IMG/VR virus record: IMGVR_UViG_3300009443_000003
Coordinates: 1 to 64,000 of that record
Source: a virus
Length of the DNA stretch: 64,000 bases
Strand: one strand, 5' to 3'
Shown here: positions 37,542 to 52,015 of the stretch, piece after piece
How the letters are laid out: the number at the start of each line of letters is the position of its first letter
Numbering within the stretch: the first letter of the stretch is position 1
Translations under genes and position numbers: made by a program
Notes under the pieces: generated by a model
Told to the model about the DNA's origin: nothing
Database searches by the model: none
The model's input: only the letters and a program-made list of their open reading frames with translations

Positions 37542-38030
37542 ATGAAACATGTAAAATTATTCGAACAATTTCTAAATGAGGATGTTAAAGTTAAAGGTAA
37601 TATCTCAGAAGAAACAGCTAATGAATTGCTTGATTTTCTAAAACGGGCTATCGGTAAAAAATTAAACTGGAAAGAATTTTCAAAATGGCATGGTGGAGCT
37701 GCTCAATTAGGTAAAAAATCACCAGCACAAAAAAAGTTCTTAGAAGCCAATTATGAATGCGAGATTGTAGATGTTACAATGCGCTACTTACCTAAGTATA
37801 AAAATGCTCAGTATTCAGTGTCATATCTACAAAATACATCATGGCATGGCTCTCCGCATGTCAAAGAAGCGCCACTTTTATTATATAAAGATGATCCTAA
37901 TTGGACACCAGAGGAAGGCGATACTAAAGATAGGGCTTTAGAAAAAAGTCTTGAAAGGTACCATGACGAAAGGCAATGGGACAGATTTTCAGATATAACT
38001 AGAATAGGTCGATTCACGCCCTATTTATAA
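37542..38030 (+). CDS. Small capsid-targeting-type protein
   Basis: A 162-residue protein starting MKHVKLFEQFLNEDV, a textbook form of the capsid-targeting-like peptide used by this phage, with a candidate cleavage LNE-D after residue 13. The remainder contains a Trp/His-rich region (WKEFSKWHGG, then NTSWHGSPHV) and a charged C-terminus. It is preceded by 103 bases of A/T-rich sequence containing ATATTTAC at 37490-37497, possibly a promoter. No function beyond probable head localisation can be read. Confidence 0.6.
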   Translation: MKHVKLFEQFLNEDVKVKGNISEETANELLDFLKRAIGKKLNWKEFSKWHGGAAQLGKKSPAQKKFLEANYECEIVDVTMRYLPKYKNAQYSVSYLQNTSWHGSPHVKEAPLLLYKDDPNWTPEEGDTKDRALEKSLERYHDERQWDRFSDITRIGRFTPYL

Positions 38031-38041
38031 TAGGTCGATTC
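38003..38041 (+). repeat. 13-bp direct repeat spanning a stop codon
   Basis: AATAGGTCGATTC occurs at 38003-38015 and again at 38029-38041. The first copy is in the last codons of the 162-residue protein, and the second begins at its stop. A 26-bp period suggests a partial tandem duplication. Confidence 0.85.
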
Positions 38042-38059
38042 GATGTTCATTAATTCAAT

Positions 38060-38818
38060 ATGCCAAGTACTTCAAAAGCACAACAGAGACTAATGGGAAT
38101 GGCTTACGCTTATAAAAAGGGTGAGCTTGATGCCAAAGAGGCTAGCCAGGAGGTAAAAGACCTAGCAGACTCTATGACATTAAAGCAGCTTAAGAAGTAT
38201 GCTGCAACAAAACATGAAGGACTACCAGACAAAGTGGACGACAATCTTCAACCAGGAGATGTTGGTGGAATGGGACCAATCAAATTCCCAACAGCAACTG
38301 AGACCGGTTCTGGTGATGTTCCTGCAGGCCAAGGCGATGCAGAAGAAGAATATAAAAAGAAACGTAGAAAAATGAAACACTTAAAGAACTTTGAACAGTT
38401 TATCAATGAATCTCAATTCGCTGATGATAGTACTTCTAATCAAGATGCTAAGTTAAGGCTAAAAGAACGTACAGAACTAACAAAAAAATTAATTAAGGCA
38501 ACCGGGATTACAACATGGGAAGTAGACTATAGCCATGGTTTTTTTACCATGAATACAAAGACTAAAGGAAATACCGGAACTGAAATATTTGGAATAAAAG
38601 ATTTGGATTATAGTTTTACTTGGAGAATTCTTAACTCTGACGATTATGAACCATTGGCACCAAAAGAAATGCAGATAGTCGCACAACCAACAGACGGCAG
38701 CGGAGGTCGTACCAAACGCAATTGGTATGTAACAAAAGGTAATGTTGCTACAATTGATGATGTTATAAAAGCAATGTCAAACTTAGAGGTAGGTAAATCT
38801 GGTTGGAAACAAGCATAA
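38060..38818 (+). CDS. DUF3008-like domain fused to a capsid-targeting-type protein
   Basis: A 252-residue protein. Residues 1-58 (PSTSKAQQRLMGMAYAYKKG, ending KHEGLPDKV) match the small phage/bacterial domain of unknown function DUF3008. A Gly/Pro-rich acidic linker leads at residue 105 to MKHLKNFEQFINES, an exact capsid-targeting-like peptide that would be a normal protein start (ATG 38372) in its neighbours. The last 130 residues form a small beta domain. Either the gene is a fusion of two older genes or a second protein is made from the internal start. Both the fused peptide and the adjacent genes point to a head-localised protein. Confidence 0.65.
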   Translation: MPSTSKAQQRLMGMAYAYKKGELDAKEASQEVKDLADSMTLKQLKKYAATKHEGLPDKVDDNLQPGDVGGMGPIKFPTATETGSGDVPAGQGDAEEEYKKKRRKMKHLKNFEQFINESQFADDSTSNQDAKLRLKERTELTKKLIKATGITTWEVDYSHGFFTMNTKTKGNTGTEIFGIKDLDYSFTWRILNSDDYEPLAPKEMQIVAQPTDGSGGRTKRNWYVTKGNVATIDDVIKAMSNLEVGKSGWKQA

Positions 38819-38835
38819 AACAATAAAATAAAAAA

Positions 38836-39249
38836 ATGAAACACTTAAAGAACTTTGAATCCTTTCTTAATCCAGGATCTGAAAACGCAGTTTATGAAAA
38901 AATAAAATTCGGATCTTACTACTTTAATAAAGGACAATTTAGTGAATTCGATCTACCTGCTAAAGGAGAAACTGCATATGCTTTGATTGCACATAATACC
39001 GTTGAGGTTAACAAACAATCCATGTATTTAAGATCTGAAGGAGATATGAACATTGGTGCTGGATTTAGACCTACGGTACTTGCCGTTGCTGAAGATGAAG
39101 CATCGATTAAAGCAGCATATGATACACAACTAAAAGTTGGAGGAACTGGTGCAAATCTTTCTTTCTCATATGGGACTATTACAGTTAAGGGTAATAATGT
39201 ACCATTTACAGAGATTGGCGGCCATTTGGCAAAAGGAAATATAAAATAA
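38836..39249 (+). CDS. Small capsid-targeting-type protein without the cleavage Glu
   Basis: A 137-residue protein starting MKHLKNFESFLNPG. The first 24 bases of the gene are identical to those at the internal start 38372, but the usual Glu of the LNE site is replaced by Pro-Gly, so protease cleavage may be lost. The rest is beta-rich with a FSYGTITVKG segment near the end. It sits 17 bases after the preceding gene and 4 bases before the next. It may be an uncleaved internal protein. Function unknown. Confidence 0.6.
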   Translation: MKHLKNFESFLNPGSENAVYEKIKFGSYYFNKGQFSEFDLPAKGETAYALIAHNTVEVNKQSMYLRSEGDMNIGAGFRPTVLAVAEDEASIKAAYDTQLKVGGTGANLSFSYGTITVKGNNVPFTEIGGHLAKGNIK

Positions 39250-39253
39250 AAAA

Positions 39254-39772
39254 ATGAAACATCTAAATAACTTTGAATCTTTCGTAAACGAATCATATGA
39301 CGGTAACATGTCAGACTTTAAATATGAGTTTCCAATGAAGTTTGAAGAAGTAACAGGTAATCCAGAAAAAGCTATCAAGAGAATCACTAAGAGCGGTAAA
39401 GGTTATGAAGTTAGAACCTCAACTTACATGAGTGAAGACGAAATGAAAGCTGTTGGTGCTGCAATGAACTTGGATCTAATCAGTTATAACAAAGGTAGCA
39501 ACGTTGCAATTACAGTTTATGAGTCTAAAGTCAACGAAGAATACATTGAACTTCCAAGTCTTGATGTACCTGCAACTGAATTGATTGATGCATTTAGACA
39601 ATGGTATAAAGACACCGCAGATAACTGGGAAGACTTTAAAGAAGACATGGCTGAAGATTCAGTTGATGAAGCAGCTAAGAACGCACAGATGGAAATCTTA
39701 GCTCACCTTTCTAATGAGATGAATGACATTATCAAAGACAGAAAATTTAAGGTTAGAGCAGACTTCAAGTAA
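39254..39772 (+). CDS. Small capsid-targeting-type protein
   Basis: A 172-residue protein starting MKHLNNFESFVNESYDG, with a candidate VNE-S site, and a second site-like VNEEY near residue 96. The body contains a beta-rich domain to about residue 90 and an acidic helical C-terminal half ending in a Lys/Arg-rich tail. It is the last gene of the capsid-targeting cluster and is followed by a strong terminator. A role as an internal head protein is inferred from the N-terminal peptide and the cluster. Confidence 0.6.
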   Translation: MKHLNNFESFVNESYDGNMSDFKYEFPMKFEEVTGNPEKAIKRITKSGKGYEVRTSTYMSEDEMKAVGAAMNLDLISYNKGSNVAITVYESKVNEEYIELPSLDVPATELIDAFRQWYKDTADNWEDFKEDMAEDSVDEAAKNAQMEILAHLSNEMNDIIKDRKFKVRADFK

Positions 39773-44998: not shown

Positions 44999-45463
44999 AT
45001 GGCAAACACAGATAATAAATGTTCGGATCTTGACGTGGCAGATTTCCACTCAAATGCAGATGACACCTTTGGCTTAATCTTTAACAAGCAGAAAGAATTA
45101 CAAGAGCGTCTTGGCTTTAATTTTGAAGGCTGGACAATCAAAGAAATCGCTGACTTTTGGATGGTTAACAAACATGCATTAAGTGACGAACTCAACGAGA
45201 TGTTTGATGCCCTAGGCGGTATCAACGACGGTATTGGTAACGCAGGCTGGAAGTATTGGAAGCAAGACAATGCAAAAGCTGCTAACATGAAAATTGAAGA
45301 TCTATCCGAAGCAGACAAATTAGAACTCTTTTATGAATGGATTGACGGATTACATTTTTACATGAACTTTGCAATAGCAATTGGTATGACTAGTAAAGAT
45401 GTTGTTAATCTATACATGGCGAAGAACGCAGAGAATCACGACAGACAAGAAAGAGGCTACTAA
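44999..45463 (+). CDS. Dimeric dUTPase (all-alpha NTP pyrophosphatase type)
   Basis: A 154-residue protein with the helical dUTPase/MazG-superfamily pattern. It has an N-terminal E-x-x-x-Asp/Glu region (MVNKHALSDELNEMFDALGG), a GWKYWK helix, a metal-binding helix (KLELFYEWIDGLHFYMNFAI), and the characteristic C-terminal K-N-x-x-N-x-x-x-Q-x-x-G-Y end (KNAENHDRQERGY). It hydrolyses dUTP to dUMP, keeping uracil out of DNA and supplying the thymidylate precursor. It comes before DNA polymerase. The T4 dCTPase/dUTPase (gp56) belongs to the same all-alpha NTP-pyrophosphatase superfamily. Confidence 0.8.
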   Translation: MANTDNKCSDLDVADFHSNADDTFGLIFNKQKELQERLGFNFEGWTIKEIADFWMVNKHALSDELNEMFDALGGINDGIGNAGWKYWKQDNAKAANMKIEDLSEADKLELFYEWIDGLHFYMNFAIAIGMTSKDVVNLYMAKNAENHDRQERGY

Positions 45464-45483: not shown

Positions 45484-46887
45484 ATGCTATTAGACATTGA
45501 GCAGAAAGAAAATGAAGTAATCGTCAGCTACTACGATAAGAAAGGCGAAGTTTCATTTAAACGCTATCGCGTAGATAACTTTGAGAATTGGACAGTAGCT
45601 GAAGATAACGACAGATACAGAGACCAAAACTTTAAAAACTGGGACGGCAGAGCAATCAAACGCAAACGCTCAAGAACTTACAACAAATTCAGTCTACTCT
45701 ATTTTATGGACTCTCTGCCTGAAGCAGATAGAGAAGAGATCTTTGCATTCAACATGCCAAGAACATACTATGTCGATATTGAGACTGAGATTGTAGATGG
45801 CTTTCCAAGACCAGAAGAGGCTAAGAGTCGTATCTTAACTTTTTCGATCATTACACCAGAACGTAAAGCAATTGTACTTGGTCTAGATGACTTGAATGCA
45901 GAACAGATCAAGAAGATTGAAGATGACACTAACGCTCACTTCAAGAACTACGATCAAGACTGGACTTTTAGCTACTACAAGTTTAAGAATGAGTATGATA
46001 TGCTCTATAACTTCTTGCACAAGTTCTTGCCTAAGTTTCCAATGATGACCGGCTGGAACTTTATCAACTATGACTGGCAATATATTGTTAATCGCTGTAA
46101 GAGGCTACAGATTGATCTAACTGAAGTTGCAATCACAGGAGCACTAGACAAAAAAGACTCAAGACCATTACACATGGGTATTCTTGACTATATGCAGCTC
46201 TATGATAAGTATGATCGTTCGGTTGCGGTAAAAGAGTCTAACAAACTTGACTTTGTGTCAAGCCAAGTCTTGAATGTGGCCAAGATTAAATACACAGGTT
46301 CACTGCAAGATCTTTACGAGAACAACTTTCAAAAATATGTTTACTATAACGTAGTTGACTCTGTGTTGGTTTATTATATTGACCAACAGTTAAAGTCAAT
46401 GGAAGTCCTACTGACCTTATCAACTATTACTAAAATGCCACTCTATAAAGCAGCCAGCCCCGTTGCAGTAACAGAGTCTTTAATTGCAAGAAAGCTTGCA
46501 GAAGACAACGTTAAGATCGGCGTTGAGTATGACAAAGAGGACAGTAAGAAAGACGGTCAGTATGAAGGTGCTTTTGTAAAACAACCAATTGTTGGTTATT
46601 ACTCAGGAGTAAGTGCATTTGACTTTGCATCACTGTACCCATCGGTGATGAGGCAGTTTAATATCTCGCCGGATGCTTTCATTGAAATTGTACCGGAAGC
46701 TGAAATTGCCGAGCGCAGAAAAGATAATAACGTAATCGTTTGCGAGAACGGAGTTGTCTATAAAAAGGAAGATTCAATCCTAAAAAAGATCCTCAGCGAT
46801 CTATATGCACAAAGAAAGGAATACAAGAAGGCTTCATATGCTTATTATGAAAAAGCACATGAACTTCAAAAAAAATTTAGGCTCTAA
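45484..46887 (+). CDS. 43: DNA polymerase, N-terminal part (exonuclease and palm motif A)
   Basis: A 467-residue family B polymerase fragment. It contains the three exonuclease motifs: Exo I DIETE (Asp98, Glu100), Exo II near WNFINYD (about residues 190-200) and Exo III YNVVDSV (about 286-293). It also contains polymerase motif A DFASLYPS (residues 380-387). It ends about 60 residues after motif A (YKKASYAYYEKAHELQ) with a normal stop. Motifs B and C are missing and are found in the gene at 50807, so the two must combine to make an active gp43. The reading frame is intact; the split is a gene arrangement, not a frameshift. No intein residues were seen at the break. Confidence 0.9.
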   Translation: MLLDIEQKENEVIVSYYDKKGEVSFKRYRVDNFENWTVAEDNDRYRDQNFKNWDGRAIKRKRSRTYNKFSLLYFMDSLPEADREEIFAFNMPRTYYVDIETEIVDGFPRPEEAKSRILTFSIITPERKAIVLGLDDLNAEQIKKIEDDTNAHFKNYDQDWTFSYYKFKNEYDMLYNFLHKFLPKFPMMTGWNFINYDWQYIVNRCKRLQIDLTEVAITGALDKKDSRPLHMGILDYMQLYDKYDRSVAVKESNKLDFVSSQVLNVAKIKYTGSLQDLYENNFQKYVYYNVVDSVLVYYIDQQLKSMEVLLTLSTITKMPLYKAASPVAVTESLIARKLAEDNVKIGVEYDKEDSKKDGQYEGAFVKQPIVGYYSGVSAFDFASLYPSVMRQFNISPDAFIEIVPEAEIAERRKDNNVIVCENGVVYKKEDSILKKILSDLYAQRKEYKKASYAYYEKAHELQKKFRL

Positions 46888-46912
46888 TTTAGAAAGAACC
46901 AGCAGCCTGTTT

Positions 46913-46926
46913 GATATATAAAAAAC
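46913..46926 (+). promoter_or_regulatory. Putative promoter, GATATATAAAAAAC
   Basis: The GATATATA motif follows the polymerase N-part. With the terminator at 46973 downstream, a transcript of about 70 bases could be made before nrdB. Confidence 0.35.
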
Positions 46927-46972
46927 AAGCAGCGCTGCTAGTGTCTTACTAATAAAAAACGATTAATCGGAA

Positions 46973-47003
46973 CAAGGTCTACCCTAATAAGCAGGCCTTT
47001 TTT
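46973..47003 (+). terminator. Terminator candidate before nrdB
   Basis: AAGGTCT (from 46974) pairs with AGGCCTT (46993-46999), one G-T wobble, around a 12-base loop and is followed by TTTTT. It lies about 35 bases ahead of the nrdB start, so nrdB could have its own promoter or be controlled by attenuation. Confidence 0.7.
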
Positions 47004-47038
47004 AGACTAATCTGCAATTGTAAAAAAACTAGCAAATA

Positions 47039-48046
47039 ATGTCACTATTTAAAGAAAGAATAGAATTTAAGCCTTTTGAGTACCCGGAGTATTATACCGA
47101 GGGTTGGCTGAAACAAGCTCAAGCGTTCTGGTTACACACAGAGATCTCTATGCAAGGAGATGTAAAAGACTGGAATGAAAGAATGGAAGCACATGAAAAG
47201 AACCTGGTAGGCAATATTTTGCTAGGTTTTGCACAAACTGAATGTGCAGTTTCAGATTACTGGACTGGTATGGTAACAAAGTGGTTTCCGAAGCATGAAA
47301 TCAAGCAAATGGCAATGATGTTTGGCTCACAAGAGACTATTCATGCCACTGCATACTCATATCTAAATGAAACTCTAGGACTAGAGGACTTCACTGCATT
47401 CTTACACGAACCAGCAACAGCTGAAAAGTTTGAGCATTTAACCTCAACCGAAGCTGATTGGACTCATGACGATCTTGCCGAAAACTCAAATGCAAGAAGA
47501 CAAGTTGCTAGATCTTTAGCAATCTTTAGTGCCTTTGCAGAAGGCGTTTCACTCTATTCTTCATTTGCGGTACTCTACTCGTTCCAAATGAGAAACTTAT
47601 TAAAAGGTATTGGTCAGCAAATGAAATGGTCAGTACGTGATGAGTCTCTACACTCTAAAATGGGTTGTCAACTCTTCAGACACATGACTGATGAATACCC
47701 AGATCTAAAAGAACAGGTTAAAGACGATGTTGTTAGAGCTGCTCAACTAATGGTTGAAATGGAGCACAAATTCATCGATAAGATGTTTGAAATGGGTAAT
47801 CTTGAAAACCTTAAGAAAGAAGATCTTAAGAGCTTTATTACCAAAAGAGCCAATGAAAAAATTGCAGAACTTGGTTACACAGAAGGCCCTTTCATGGAAT
47901 ATGATGAAGAGAGCGCTAGTCAACTAGACTGGTTCTACCATCTAACCGGTGGCCACACACATACCGACTTCTTTGCAGTTCGACCAACTGACTATTCAAA
48001 AGCAGGCGAAGACGAAAACTGGGACGAAGATGACTTATTCGACTAA
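47039..48046 (+). CDS. nrdB: Ribonucleotide reductase small subunit (class I)
   Basis: A 335-residue R2 protein that supplies the radical-generating metal cofactor to NrdA. The Glu-x-x-His pair at Glu99 and His102 (QETIHATAY) is followed by Tyr106 at the radical position. FAEGV and RDESLHSKMG supply the later Glu, Glu and His ligands. By spacing from Glu99 (31 residues), the first ligand is Glu68 rather than the Asp of E. coli R2, a feature of subclass Ic/Id enzymes such as Flavobacterium R2. The C-terminus ends with an acidic NWDEDDLFD, which in the family docks to NrdA. It lies 14 bases before nrdA and sits inside the split polymerase gene. Confidence 0.9.
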   Translation: MSLFKERIEFKPFEYPEYYTEGWLKQAQAFWLHTEISMQGDVKDWNERMEAHEKNLVGNILLGFAQTECAVSDYWTGMVTKWFPKHEIKQMAMMFGSQETIHATAYSYLNETLGLEDFTAFLHEPATAEKFEHLTSTEADWTHDDLAENSNARRQVARSLAIFSAFAEGVSLYSSFAVLYSFQMRNLLKGIGQQMKWSVRDESLHSKMGCQLFRHMTDEYPDLKEQVKDDVVRAAQLMVEMEHKFIDKMFEMGNLENLKKEDLKSFITKRANEKIAELGYTEGPFMEYDEESASQLDWFYHLTGGHTHTDFFAVRPTDYSKAGEDENWDEDDLFD

Positions 48047-48059
48047 TTAATTATACACG

Positions 48060-49913
48060 ATGTTTAAAATGTTTAAAAAAGAAGATACAGACCGCACTGA
48101 AGTGGTTAATTACGCAGCAGACTTAGGCTGGGAAATCGGAGTAGATTTTCCAACATGGGCTAACACTGAAATCTACGTAAAAACAATCAGCAGAGGCTAT
48201 CTGTTAGAAGGTGAAACACCGAAAGATGCTTACTGGAGAGTTGCAACTACAACTGCTAAAAGACTGCAAAAGCCAGAAATGGCAAGCAAGTTCTTTGACT
48301 ACATCTGGAAAGGCTGGTTAAACCTAGCATCTCCAGTACTTTCAAACACTGGAACTGAGCGCGGTCTACCAATCTCTTGTTTTGGGATTGATGTCGCAGA
48401 CTCAATTGCAGATATTGGCGGTAAGAATCTAGAGATGATGCTCTTAGCAAAACATGGCGGTGGTGTTGGTATTGGTGTTAACCAGATCAGATCTGCTGGA
48501 TCTACGATCCGCGGTAATGGAACTTCAGACGGTGTTGTACCTTTTATTAAGATCTATGACTCAACTATCCTAGCTACTAATCAAGGAAGTGTAAGACGTG
48601 GCGCAGCTTCGGTTAACATTGACATTGAGCATGGTGACTTTTGGGAATGGTTAGAAATACGTGAACCAAAGGGTGACGTTAATCGCCAGTCTTTAAATAT
48701 CCACCAGTGTGTGATTGTACCAGATGGTTTTATGCAAAAGGTAGAAGCCGGTGATAAAGAAGCACGTAAAAGATGGGCTGCAGTGCTTAGAAAACGTAGA
48801 GCAACAGGTGAGCCTTATATCATGTTTAAAGGTAATGTGAACAGTGCAAATCCAGATGCTTACAAGAACAATGGTCTAAAGGTTTATATGACCAACATTT
48901 GTTCTGAGATTGCACTACATACAGATGAGAACCACTCTTTTGTATGTTGTTTAAGTTCATTGAACCTGGCAAAATATGATGAGTGGAAAGACACAGATCT
49001 AATCTACACTGCAACATGGTTCTTGGATGGAGTACTTGAAGAATTTATCCAGAAAGCAAAATACATGCGTGGTTTTGAGAATAGCGTGAGATCAGCAGAA
49101 AAAGGTAGAGCTTTAGGACTTGGAGTCTTGGGCTGGCACACTTACCTGCAAGAGCACAATATTCCATTCGAAGGCCTAACAGCTCAGTTTGAAACACGTA
49201 AGATCTTCTCTCAACTAAAGACTGAAAGTGAGAAGGCAAGCCGAGATCTAGCCAAAGAATATGGTGAACCTCTATGGTGCGTTGGCACCGGCATGCGTAA
49301 TACGCACCTGAGAGCCGTTGCGCCAACTGTGAGCAACTCAAAACTTGCTGGTAACTATTCACCAGGTATTGAGCCTTGGGCTGCTAACGTATTCACAGAA
49401 CAAACTGCAAAGGGTACTTTTATTCGTAAGAACCCAACGTTAGAACAAGCTTTAGATCTAATCGGTAAGAATACAAAAGACACTTGGGATAAGATCCTAG
49501 AAGATGGTGGTAGTGTACAAGGTCTAGATTGGATGGATGATTATCACGTACATATCGGTGAGGCTCTAGATAAAGATTGGGGCACTCCGATCCATAAAGA
49601 TAAATTGAAAGAAGCGCCAGAAGCAGCCGAAGATCAGTTTATTCCAATGAAAGATGTATACAAGACCTTTAAAGAAATTAACCAACTTGAGCTGGTAAAA
49701 CAGGCTGGAGTGAGACAACAATATGTTGACCAAGCAGTCTCTTTGAACTTAGCGTTTCCAATTGAGGCAACACCTAAGTTTATCAACCAAGTGCACCTAG
49801 AAGCTTACAATCAAGGTATTAAGACGCTCTATTACATGAGAACAGAGTCAGTACTGAGAGGCGATATTGCAACAAGAGCAATGGATCCAGATTGTATCAG
49901 CTGTGATGGATAA
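48060..49913 (+). CDS. nrdA: Ribonucleotide reductase large subunit (class I)
   Basis: A 617-residue R1, shorter than the common 750 because the N-terminal ATP-cone is absent, so the overall dATP activity-control site is missing. The active-site residues are readable: Cys107 in LPISCFG, the catalytic Asn-x-Cys-x-Glu as NICSE (about residues 279-283), and the pairing Cys in CCLSSLNL. The C-terminus has the redox CxxC tail (DPDCISCDG). It reduces ribonucleotides to deoxynucleotides for phage DNA synthesis. It follows nrdB directly and precedes a terminator and the clamp gene. Confidence 0.92.
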   Translation: MFKMFKKEDTDRTEVVNYAADLGWEIGVDFPTWANTEIYVKTISRGYLLEGETPKDAYWRVATTTAKRLQKPEMASKFFDYIWKGWLNLASPVLSNTGTERGLPISCFGIDVADSIADIGGKNLEMMLLAKHGGGVGIGVNQIRSAGSTIRGNGTSDGVVPFIKIYDSTILATNQGSVRRGAASVNIDIEHGDFWEWLEIREPKGDVNRQSLNIHQCVIVPDGFMQKVEAGDKEARKRWAAVLRKRRATGEPYIMFKGNVNSANPDAYKNNGLKVYMTNICSEIALHTDENHSFVCCLSSLNLAKYDEWKDTDLIYTATWFLDGVLEEFIQKAKYMRGFENSVRSAEKGRALGLGVLGWHTYLQEHNIPFEGLTAQFETRKIFSQLKTESEKASRDLAKEYGEPLWCVGTGMRNTHLRAVAPTVSNSKLAGNYSPGIEPWAANVFTEQTAKGTFIRKNPTLEQALDLIGKNTKDTWDKILEDGGSVQGLDWMDDYHVHIGEALDKDWGTPIHKDKLKEAPEAAEDQFIPMKDVYKTFKEINQLELVKQAGVRQQYVDQAVSLNLAFPIEATPKFINQVHLEAYNQGIKTLYYMRTESVLRGDIATRAMDPDCISCDG

Positions 49914-49968
49914 GAAATCCGGTGGTATGAAACAGGACCACATTTAGGACCGTTATAGTTAACGGGTT

Positions 49969-50007
49969 GGGCAGAGAAAAGTTCGCTACTATCTCTGCCC
50001 TTTTTAT
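49969..50007 (+). terminator. Strong rho-independent terminator after nrdA
   Basis: GGGCAGAGA (49969-49977) pairs perfectly with TCTCTGCCC (49992-50000) around a 14-base loop, followed by TTTTT. It ends the nrdB-nrdA unit. Confidence 0.93.
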
Positions 50008-50059
50008 TGAAACTGTTTGCTCTTTTCACATACAATAACTAAACATAAATTAAAAAAAT

Positions 50060-50803
50060 ATGAAGTTAAAAATTGATCGTATTGACCAGCACGCGTTGAC
50101 CAACTTTATCAATCGCGTTAAGCTAATTGACTCTTTCATCTACATGAAAATCACTAATGGTAGAATCGAGTCTTCTGTTTATTTACCGCAGAGAGATGCA
50201 GTAAAGAGCCATGTTGTAAACATGGACCAGATTTTCCAGACCAATGAGATTGTACCTAGTGACAAAGCCCTAAAGATTGCATTCTTCGATGGTGTTAAAG
50301 TTATTGAAGCAATCAAACACTTTGAACATGATGCTATTAAAGGTGAAATTGAATTCATCGAGAATGATGAAGAATACGTAGCATCTACGTTTAGAATCTA
50401 CAACGATGAGTTAGAAATTAAGCTATCTTGTTCAGAACCATCATTGGGCTTTAAAGATCTTACAAAAGAGCAACAAGAAGCTATCTTCTCAAGAGATAAT
50501 AGTGCATTCAACTTTGAGATCGATACTCATATGATTAACAAAGTAAAGAACTTGTTTAATCTAGACACAGAAGAAACATTTAGTATTAAAGCTAACGGTA
50601 AAGGAGTTAACGTTGATGGTAAATCATTTAGCGTTGTGATTAATCCAGAAAGCAAAGGCTCTGGTAAGGCTACAGTCTATAAGAAGTATTTGAACCTGTT
50701 AGACAGGGAAGAACAAAACGTGTTCGTATCGAGCTCGAAAGTTGTCTTCCAGTCTAAGGATTCAGAAACACTATTAACTGTATCAACTTGCCAAACAGCT
50801 TAA
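50060..50803 (+). CDS. 45: Sliding clamp, gp45-like
   Basis: A 247-residue protein (T4 gp45 is 228) with the beta-strand-rich sliding clamp pattern. It has an N-terminal IDQHALTNFINRVKLI segment, a middle QTNEIVPSDKALKIAFFDGVK region and a C-terminal VFVSSSKVVFQ strand. It encircles DNA, tethers the polymerase and in T4 also activates late transcription with gp55 and gp33. It sits between nrdA and the polymerase C-part, three bases ahead of the latter, so the clamp and the C-terminal polymerase fragment are probably co-translated. The ATG follows an A-run with no Shine-Dalgarno sequence. Confidence 0.8.
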   Translation: MKLKIDRIDQHALTNFINRVKLIDSFIYMKITNGRIESSVYLPQRDAVKSHVVNMDQIFQTNEIVPSDKALKIAFFDGVKVIEAIKHFEHDAIKGEIEFIENDEEYVASTFRIYNDELEIKLSCSEPSLGFKDLTKEQQEAIFSRDNSAFNFEIDTHMINKVKNLFNLDTEETFSIKANGKGVNVDGKSFSVVINPESKGSGKATVYKKYLNLLDREEQNVFVSSSKVVFQSKDSETLLTVSTCQTA

Positions 50804-50806
50804 TAA

Positions 50807-52015
50807 ATGGATATAAAAGAGTTAGAAAATAAACCAATAGATCAATTGACTGATGCTGACGCTAAGCTGCTTGTAGATCACTACAAGCAGCTTTCAGCAA
50901 AGTATACAGCTTATGAGCAGGCGGTTAAGTTAACTCTTAACTCGATCTACGGAGCCTTTGGTAACAAATGGTTTCACTTCTTCAATATCGACATTGCAGA
51001 GTCAATTACAAAACAGGGTAAGAATGCTATTCTCTACTCAGAGTCAATCTTGAACAAATATGTTCAAGAATTTTGGCATAAAGACACTGCAGTTCACGAG
51101 CAATTCGGTATTAAAGTAAAGGGTAAAATAGAGAAGCCAGCTGTAATCTACATCGATACTGACTCATGTTACGTTCAGTTTCAAGATGTTTATGAGTCTA
51201 TCATCTGGGAAGATGAAAGTAAGAAGATGTCAATTGACGAGTTTATCTTAGCACTTTATGGCTTTAGACTTAATAATTATATTGTTAAGTGTATGGAGAT
51301 GTACGCTGAGAAACGTAATACTGATAACTTCTTAATGTTTGAGCTTGAGACTATTGCATATAATGGTATCTGGATGAGCAAGAAGAAGTACATTCAGAAT
51401 ATTGCATGGGACGATAAACTAGAGAAGACCGATCGACATGCGCCTCTGAAAAAGATTAAGACGATTGGATATGATACTATTCAATCTTCAACACCAGCAT
51501 TTGTAAGAGCAAAACTAGTTGAAGCACTTAAAATTATATTTAAGAGTGCTAAAACACCAAGTGCTGAAGAATTACAAGAACTTGTTCAATTCATGAAGCA
51601 GGTCAGAAAAGAGTTCCAGCTTGCAGATATTGACGAGATCTCATTTAACAGAAGGACAAACAATATTGAGAAATATATTGTTGACGACCAGATTGAATTT
51701 CAAGTTGGTCTAAAATGTCCGGCCAATGTTAAAGCAGCAGGTTACTACAACTACCTGCTTAATATGAACTCTAAATTTAAAACAAAGTATAAAGTAATTG
51801 GTAACGGTGAGAAGCTAAAGATCTACAACTGTAAGAGTCCAATCAGTGAAGTTTATGCCTATCTACCAGGTGAACATCCTTATGAGTTTGCACCAGAGAT
51901 AGACTACGACACTCAGTTTGAAAAGGCAATGATTGACCCGTTAAACAGAGTACTTACAGCAATCGGTCTACAGACACTTGACACTAATCTACTTTATGCA
52001 TCAGCACTATTTTAA
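50807..52015 (+). CDS. 43: DNA polymerase, C-terminal part (fingers, palm motifs B and C, thumb)
   Basis: A 402-residue protein. Motif B (KLTLNSIYG, residues about 41-50) and motif C (YIDTDS, about 114-120) of family B polymerases are present, together with the thumb region. Motif A and the exonuclease are in the gene at 45484, about 3.9 kb upstream. The first 35 residues (LENKPIDQLTDADAKLLVDH) are not typical polymerase and may be a subunit-docking extension. The C-terminus ends in SALF, similar to a clamp-binding tail. It must pair with the N-part to work. Separation by nrdB, nrdA and gp45 shows a stable rearrangement. Confidence 0.9.
   Translation: MDIKELENKPIDQLTDADAKLLVDHYKQLSAKYTAYEQAVKLTLNSIYGAFGNKWFHFFNIDIAESITKQGKNAILYSESILNKYVQEFWHKDTAVHEQFGIKVKGKIEKPAVIYIDTDSCYVQFQDVYESIIWEDESKKMSIDEFILALYGFRLNNYIVKCMEMYAEKRNTDNFLMFELETIAYNGIWMSKKKYIQNIAWDDKLEKTDRHAPLKKIKTIGYDTIQSSTPAFVRAKLVEALKIIFKSAKTPSAEELQELVQFMKQVRKEFQLADIDEISFNRRTNNIEKYIVDDQIEFQVGLKCPANVKAAGYYNYLLNMNSKFKTKYKVIGNGEKLKIYNCKSPISEVYAYLPGEHPYEFAPEIDYDTQFEKAMIDPLNRVLTAIGLQTLDTNLLYASALF

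Follow-up and report, generated by a model that had tools for sequence, protein, structure and literature searches.

The replicative DNA polymerase of a marine phage known from IMG/VR record IMGVR_UViG_3300009443_000003 is divided between two genes. The window analysed here is a stretch of 64,000 nucleotides (positions 1 to 64,000 of that record); in it, gene 43A (45484-46887, + strand, 467 amino acids) corresponds to the N-terminal half of a B-family replicase (PolB) and gene 43B (50807-52015, + strand, 402 amino acids) to its C-terminal half. Very probably, both genes encode one T4-type B-family replicase that was cut once in an ancestor and whose halves assemble into an active enzyme. This fission is not private to the window phage: it goes back to the ancestor of a large clade that comprises jumbo and giant phages, whose hosts are mostly Bacteroidota, and it looks old. 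It is likely that the replicase of this jumbo/megaphage lineage was cut a single time, long ago, at the fingertip and has since been made of two subunits, in places of three pieces, that its halves drifted hundreds of kb apart and onto opposite strands in some lineages, and that the fission was reversed at least once, in the contig L219.

The initial annotation of this region had proposed a two-gene polymerase with parts starting at 45484 and 50807, about 3.9 kb apart, the exonuclease and motif A lying in the first and motifs B and C in the second. The reading frames, the Pfam matches and a residue check bear this out. Each half is a full reading frame with its own start and stop; the usual state of the T4-type PolB, a single polypeptide (not universal in the family), is replaced here by two frames separated by 3.9 kb. 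43A matches DNA_pol_B_exo1 (1.7e-11) and positions 28-137 of the DNA_pol_B profile (2.3e-17), and 43B matches positions 152-237 and on of the latter (3e-17). The first protein is made up of the N-terminal domain, the 3'-5' exonuclease, palm motif A and the first fingers helix; the second includes the second fingers helix, motif B, motif C, the thumb and a C-terminal tail ending in LF, two residues (L401/F402) that are nearly invariant. Equivalents of the RB69 exonuclease residues D114/E116/D222/D327, as well as of D411, Y416, R482 and K486, are found in 43A, and those of K560, N564, Y567, D621, T622, D623, K705 and K706 in 43B. Judged by this comparison, all the checked catalytic and exonuclease residues and motifs A, B and C are present across the two genes.

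The fingers of RB69 gp43 are two antiparallel helices joined by a loop. When the break was aligned using RB69 gp43, S-PM2, Melnitz, Cronobacter S13 and Aeromonas 44RR as references, the end of 43A and the start of 43B fell at RB69 residues 509-522 clade-wide. 43A ends ~20 amino acids beyond the conserved fingers-helix residues and 43B begins ~40 amino acids ahead of the motif-B lysine. The AlphaFold2 (AF2) model of 43A (predicted local distance difference test, pLDDT, 86.5) matches RB69 gp43 residues 4-505 (2dtu: Z 29.4, root-mean-square deviation, rmsd, 3.4, 415 aligned) and that of 43B matches residues 514-901 (3cfo: Z 17.6, rmsd 8.7, 319 aligned). The fingers hairpin is cut at its tip, between RB69 ~505 and ~514, and not near the palm/fingers junction, where the annotation had put the break; the alignment and the structure ranges rule out that position. 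Cronobacter S13 was also considered as a split relative and rejected: its match spans the 43B start but the gene is intact.

The least certain regions of the separate AF2 models include motif A (43A 352-382) and, in 43B, motifs B and C plus a palm/thumb stretch (35-70, 115-122, 173-224). Low confidence in the palm is what these models would be expected to give if its formation requires the two chains to come together, although this is no proof. Both halves are under strong purifying selection: the ratios of nonsynonymous to synonymous substitution rates (dN/dS) in comparison with the relative L010 are 0.022 (43A) and 0.046 (43B), only close pairs being used as this measure is saturated against more distant relatives. 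Since the gene order is identical in dozens of independent contigs and purifying selection acts on both genes, the split is attributable neither to chance nor to decay.

The extent of the split was studied through IMG/VR searches, which provided 162 distinct full-length 43A genes. The gap between the halves is 2.3-6.9 kb long, with a median of 4.3 kb (86 loci measured, 43B in the same locus). Over the whole clade, the distance between the halves is either 2-14 kb or, in some megaphages, 130-280 kb with the two genes on opposite strands; it amounts to ~281 kb in LR756504, on opposite strands, ~222 kb in Lak-A2 and ~132 kb in LR756502. The phylogeny was reconstructed from the 43A part, leaving out the columns of the trait itself. 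In the careful tree, the window phage, the LR7565xx megaphages, Lak, PAU and PTm5 form one clade (support 100/100) apart from the T4-like phages and the cyanophages, and 37 of the 38 rows of this clade are split. MA9V-1 and the metagenomic 43A genes are also placed in it, and all its members but one have their cut at the same place. Tenacibaculum PTm5, Sphingomonas PAU, Chryseobacterium MA9V-1 and Prevotella Lak therefore share both the clade and the break of the window phage.

The split gene 43 of Aeromonas phages, rightly cited as a precedent in the initial annotation, is a separate case. Aeromonas 44RR2.8t and 25 also have a divided T4-type PolB, both halves of which are retained near replication genes, and the comparison of break positions proposed with that annotation places the cut of 44RR at the same fingertip loop (RB69 512/514). 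Unlike in the window, these halves are neighbours, with nothing more than a short spacer or a gene for a GIY-YIG endonuclease between them. Acinetobacter 133 and Acj9 resemble the window phage in having several ordinary genes between the halves (8 and 6 genes, ~2.4-2.9 kb) and no annotated endonuclease, but their cargo is different and they belong to another branch of the tree. The gap of the window does hold other genes, as had been stated, and the Acinetobacter phages provide a precedent for a gap filled in this way. The Aeromonas 44RR/25 and Acinetobacter 133/Acj9 splits sit among intact Straboviridae, and four state changes are forced on the tree; the Aeromonas split is an independent event within this family and is not family-wide. 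Instead of sharing a common descent, the window split and those of Aeromonas and Acinetobacter are in separate clades with intact genes between them. Because the latter lie elsewhere in the tree, among intact genes, gene 43 was split at least twice independently. That the same loop was cut in unrelated phages suggests that the fingertip is a natural break point which tolerates the separation of the two mobile helices.

A second, intact polymerase gene had been named at the outset as the observation that would overturn a two-gene replicase. It was looked for, and the whole 81,151-bp record of the window phage contains no other PolB. The whole-record search also covered 40 related or reference records (LR756500-504, LR745206, two Lak, MA9V-1, PAU, PTm5, Aeromonas 44RR and 29 IMG/VR contigs, some of which are fragments with 43A only). 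No intact PolB was found in the window record or in 39 of these 40 records, the exception being L219.

In some relatives, the polymerase has been cut a further time. 43B is interrupted at DTD|S of motif C in LR756500 (L004:12416-15816), Lak (L132/L133) and PTm5 (L134), and the two parts carry the N- and C-halves of an intein, identified by its Intein_splicing domain in LR756500 and by reading the sequence in Lak and PTm5. The record of PTm5 is annotated 'intein-containing split DNA polymerase precursor', and that of MA9V-1 lists two polymerase open reading frames. Between the intein-cut parts lie a homing-endonuclease-like gene in LR756500 (DUF7487 plus a sub-threshold MTES_1575) and a gene annotated as a VSR endonuclease in PTm5, the polymerase of both phages being thus encoded by three genes. 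Vsr/MTES_1575-type endonuclease genes are also found directly after 43A in LR756500, overlapping the 43A stop codon, and directly before 43B in PTm5. The gap of the window is free of endonuclease genes, as initially annotated; it is these relatives that retain them beside the halves. 'Fractured genes' with split inteins and homing endonucleases were reportedly described by Dassa et al. in 2009. Fractures of this kind, also published for the polB of MIJ3 (PMC6892783), occur in the 43B of the window's relatives, whereas the fingertip break of the window has neither intein nor endonuclease and its 43B is not recut. Because relatives carry such endonucleases beside the halves, a homing-endonuclease origin of the fingertip cut is plausible, on circumstantial grounds. 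As a separate observation, the ribonucleotide reductase of LR756500 (NrdJ-like, L004:4069-8240) seems to be fractured too: its N- and C-terminal ends resemble those of inteins, and an open reading frame lies in between.

The following scenario would be congruent with these results. A single cut would have occurred in the fingertip loop, in the ancestor of a large phage group that includes phages of Bacteroidota hosts, probably through a homing-endonuclease insertion of the 'fractured gene' type, and the endonuclease would later have been lost. The N-terminal domain, the exonuclease, the portion of the palm with motif A and the first fingers helix would come from 43A, and the second fingers helix, motif B, motif C, the thumb and a conserved tail that may bind the clamp from 43B. 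Since neither half holds a complete palm, they must associate to polymerise DNA, and we infer an obligate 43A/43B heterodimer, most simply 1:1, that would be held together through the palm common to both chains and the fingers helices, one from each chain, and tethered to the clamp through 43B. The gap would have taken in ribonucleotide reductase genes later on, followed by their repeated exchange. The heterodimer is credible because 43A and 43B of Aeromonas phage 25 are reported to co-purify and to have polymerase activity (PMC2988022). The initial suggestion that both parts form one enzyme is probably right. Nevertheless, several points weigh against this scenario. The reports of association and activity come from Aeromonas phage 25 only, outside the window clade, and confidence in the model of 43B by itself is modest (pLDDT 71). 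Most of the records are incomplete contigs, and an intact copy on the missing part of the window phage genome is possible. Finally, the endonuclease family found beside the halves is also present in other LR756500 genes, so the endonuclease origin is circumstantial.

Other explanations may be considered for the two genes. One possibility is that the two proteins have ceased to cooperate, 43A acting as an exonuclease on its own and 43B being a remnant or serving some other function, with the phage using the polymerase of its host or one encoded on the missing part of the contig. Exonuclease and polymerase are indeed separable domains and the record is incomplete (81 kb), but motif A of the first half and motifs B/C of the second have been kept under strong purifying selection across very divergent phages, and large jumbo records, of up to 735 kb, contain only these two polymerase parts, which makes this option very improbable. 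The halves could also be joined after transcription or translation, by trans-splicing through a split group I intron or a split intein, in which case the working enzyme would be a single chain. The split inteins at motif C of LR756500, Lak and PTm5, and the published phage polB of MIJ3, give this idea some precedent. Yet each half has its own start and stop, no intein sequence is found at either end of the fingertip break, and the search for group I introns gave no Rfam match in the window, nor in the gap even at E 5. An intein or intron at the fingertip break was rejected on these grounds, and joining of the halves can be given hardly any credit. An assembly or sequencing artefact could be suspected from the metagenomic origin of the record, or else a decaying pseudogene. 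The artefact is refuted because the arrangement recurs in dozens of independent contigs, as well as in the cultured, separately sequenced PAU, MA9V-1 and PTm5, and the pseudogene is contradicted by the purifying selection; the chance of either is negligible.

The history of the fission is further informed by L219 (IMGVR_UViG_3300021479_000006), the one intact relative that turned up when such a gene was sought, as the initial annotation had advised. It has one continuous polymerase frame of 949 amino acids (L219:8001-10850) and no further PolB in its 167-kb contig. L219 is nested within the split clade, where it groups with the split L218 and LR756504 (99/97), and a topology that unites the split rows to the exclusion of L219 is rejected (approximately unbiased test, AU p = 0.003), a value that is somewhat optimistic because this group was defined with the tree already in view. 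The 43B part of the gene is 54% identical to the 43B of LR756504, and its flanking genes match those around the latter. The simplest reading of these sequences is that the two genes apparently came together at the 43B locus and fused. Alternatively, the fission could have been repeated independently at the same loop, L219 keeping the ancestral intact gene. The fingertip is a repeated break site, as Aeromonas 44RR was cut there too, and the Straboviridae show additional state changes. Nevertheless, the deep position of L219 in the split clade would then require a separate fission in every surrounding lineage, and its gene sits in the LR756504 43B neighbourhood. Repeated fission around an ancestral intact gene is possible but costlier than re-fusion, and seems rather unlikely. 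If the re-fusion in L219 is true, a replicase can naturally move between the split and the fused state even though it is essential.

Part of this was already known: split gene 43 has been described, separate PHROGs families (2062 and 1918) already fit the halves, and two polymerase genes are named in the PTm5 and MA9V-1 records. No literature description of a single clade-wide fission was found, although an earlier remark is possible, for instance in the original phage 25 (Petrov 2010) or PTm1 papers; nor was any found of the large separation of the halves, of re-fusion or of the ribonucleotide reductase slot. Earlier descriptions treat the split as a local peculiarity, found in some T4-like phages and tied to mobile endonucleases. 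In the present data, the main replicase of a large phage group appears to have been split stably and for a long time, and the condition is widespread. The natural series of intact, two-piece, three-piece and apparently re-fused genes offers material to test the assembly of a polymerase from parts, possible effects of the break on fidelity or on the closing of the fingers, and any benefit of fission as against neutrality. Caution is also called for in annotation, as half-length 'DNA polymerase' genes in jumbo phages would be halves of one enzyme and not two polymerases.

The gap between 43A and 43B (46888-50806, 3,919 bp) contains three genes, annotated initially as nrdB, nrdA and the clamp. 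The first two are confirmed: nrdB (47039-48046, + strand), the ribonucleotide reductase small subunit, is identified by Pfam (1.8e-55) and NCBIfam (NF007186, above its cut-off), and nrdA (48060-49913, + strand), the large subunit, by Pfam and NCBIfam (NF006577, above its cut-off). The clamp label of the third (50060-50803, + strand, 247 amino acids), which is directly upstream of 43B, is unsupported by sequence. In PAU, MA9V-1 and PTm5, a homologue of its family lies between the halves. The gene adjoins 43B throughout the window clade as well as in PAU and MA9V-1, and almost does so in LR756500. Pfam, PHROGs and PDB profile searches gave no match to known clamps, and hhalign to the gp45 profile gave 2%. 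Since these searches give no support, this putative sliding clamp is gp45-like by position only, a guess based on synteny.

The usual content of the gap in the window clade is nrdB-nrdA-(extra)-45. nrdBA is absent in L193, L208 and L140, and also, unlike in the window, from the gaps of PAU, MA9V-1, PTm5 and Lak. In 19 of the 89 loci compared, the same slot is occupied by distant nrdB and nrdA homologues (~28% and ~39% identity); in comparison with window 47039-49913, this alternative type is found in the slots of L047-L066, L078, L149, L189, L291 and L294. At least five nrdB/nrdA exchanges are required on a quick 43A tree, and the gap thus serves as an exchange slot for ribonucleotide reductase. 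In many relatives, a gene for a small signal-peptide-like, outer-membrane-barrel-like protein lies between nrdA and the clamp gene (L284:12441-12881; L011, L018 and others).

The spacer after 43A (46888-47038, + strand) has two predicted hairpins (fold z-score -4.4), the second of which (46975-46998, AGGTCT..AGGCCT then TTTTT) is terminator-like with a U-run but weak, at only -5.3 kcal/mol. An intrinsic terminator is predicted after nrdA (49969-50005, + strand; GGGCAGAG..CTCTGCCC then TTTTT), with a -16.9 kcal/mol hairpin plus U-run. No such hairpin was found at the place corresponding to that after 43A in most relatives checked, and a promoter/terminator consensus scan remained at chance level; for these reasons, neither an operon structure nor separate transcription units are claimed, despite the good terminator after nrdA. 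Since just three bases separate the stop of the 247-amino-acid gene from the start of 43B, the two are probably co-read.

The recorded hosts of the named relatives are Tenacibaculum, Chryseobacterium and Prevotella, all Bacteroidota, while PAU is listed on Sphingomonas. Only 2 of the 48 window genes have a Shine-Dalgarno-like motif, and gene starts in the window are A-rich. Scarce Shine-Dalgarno motifs and A-rich starts are expected for Bacteroidota, and a host from this group is suggested, no more, for the window phage. A dUTPase-2-like gene (44999-45463) lies just upstream of 43A, and its relative in phage PAU (gp106) is just after 43A. Elsewhere in the window (37542-39772), several consecutive small proteins begin with or contain a leader of the MKHLKNFE(Q/S)F type, which is also present in relatives, between nrdA and 45, and suggests a repeated N-terminal tag.

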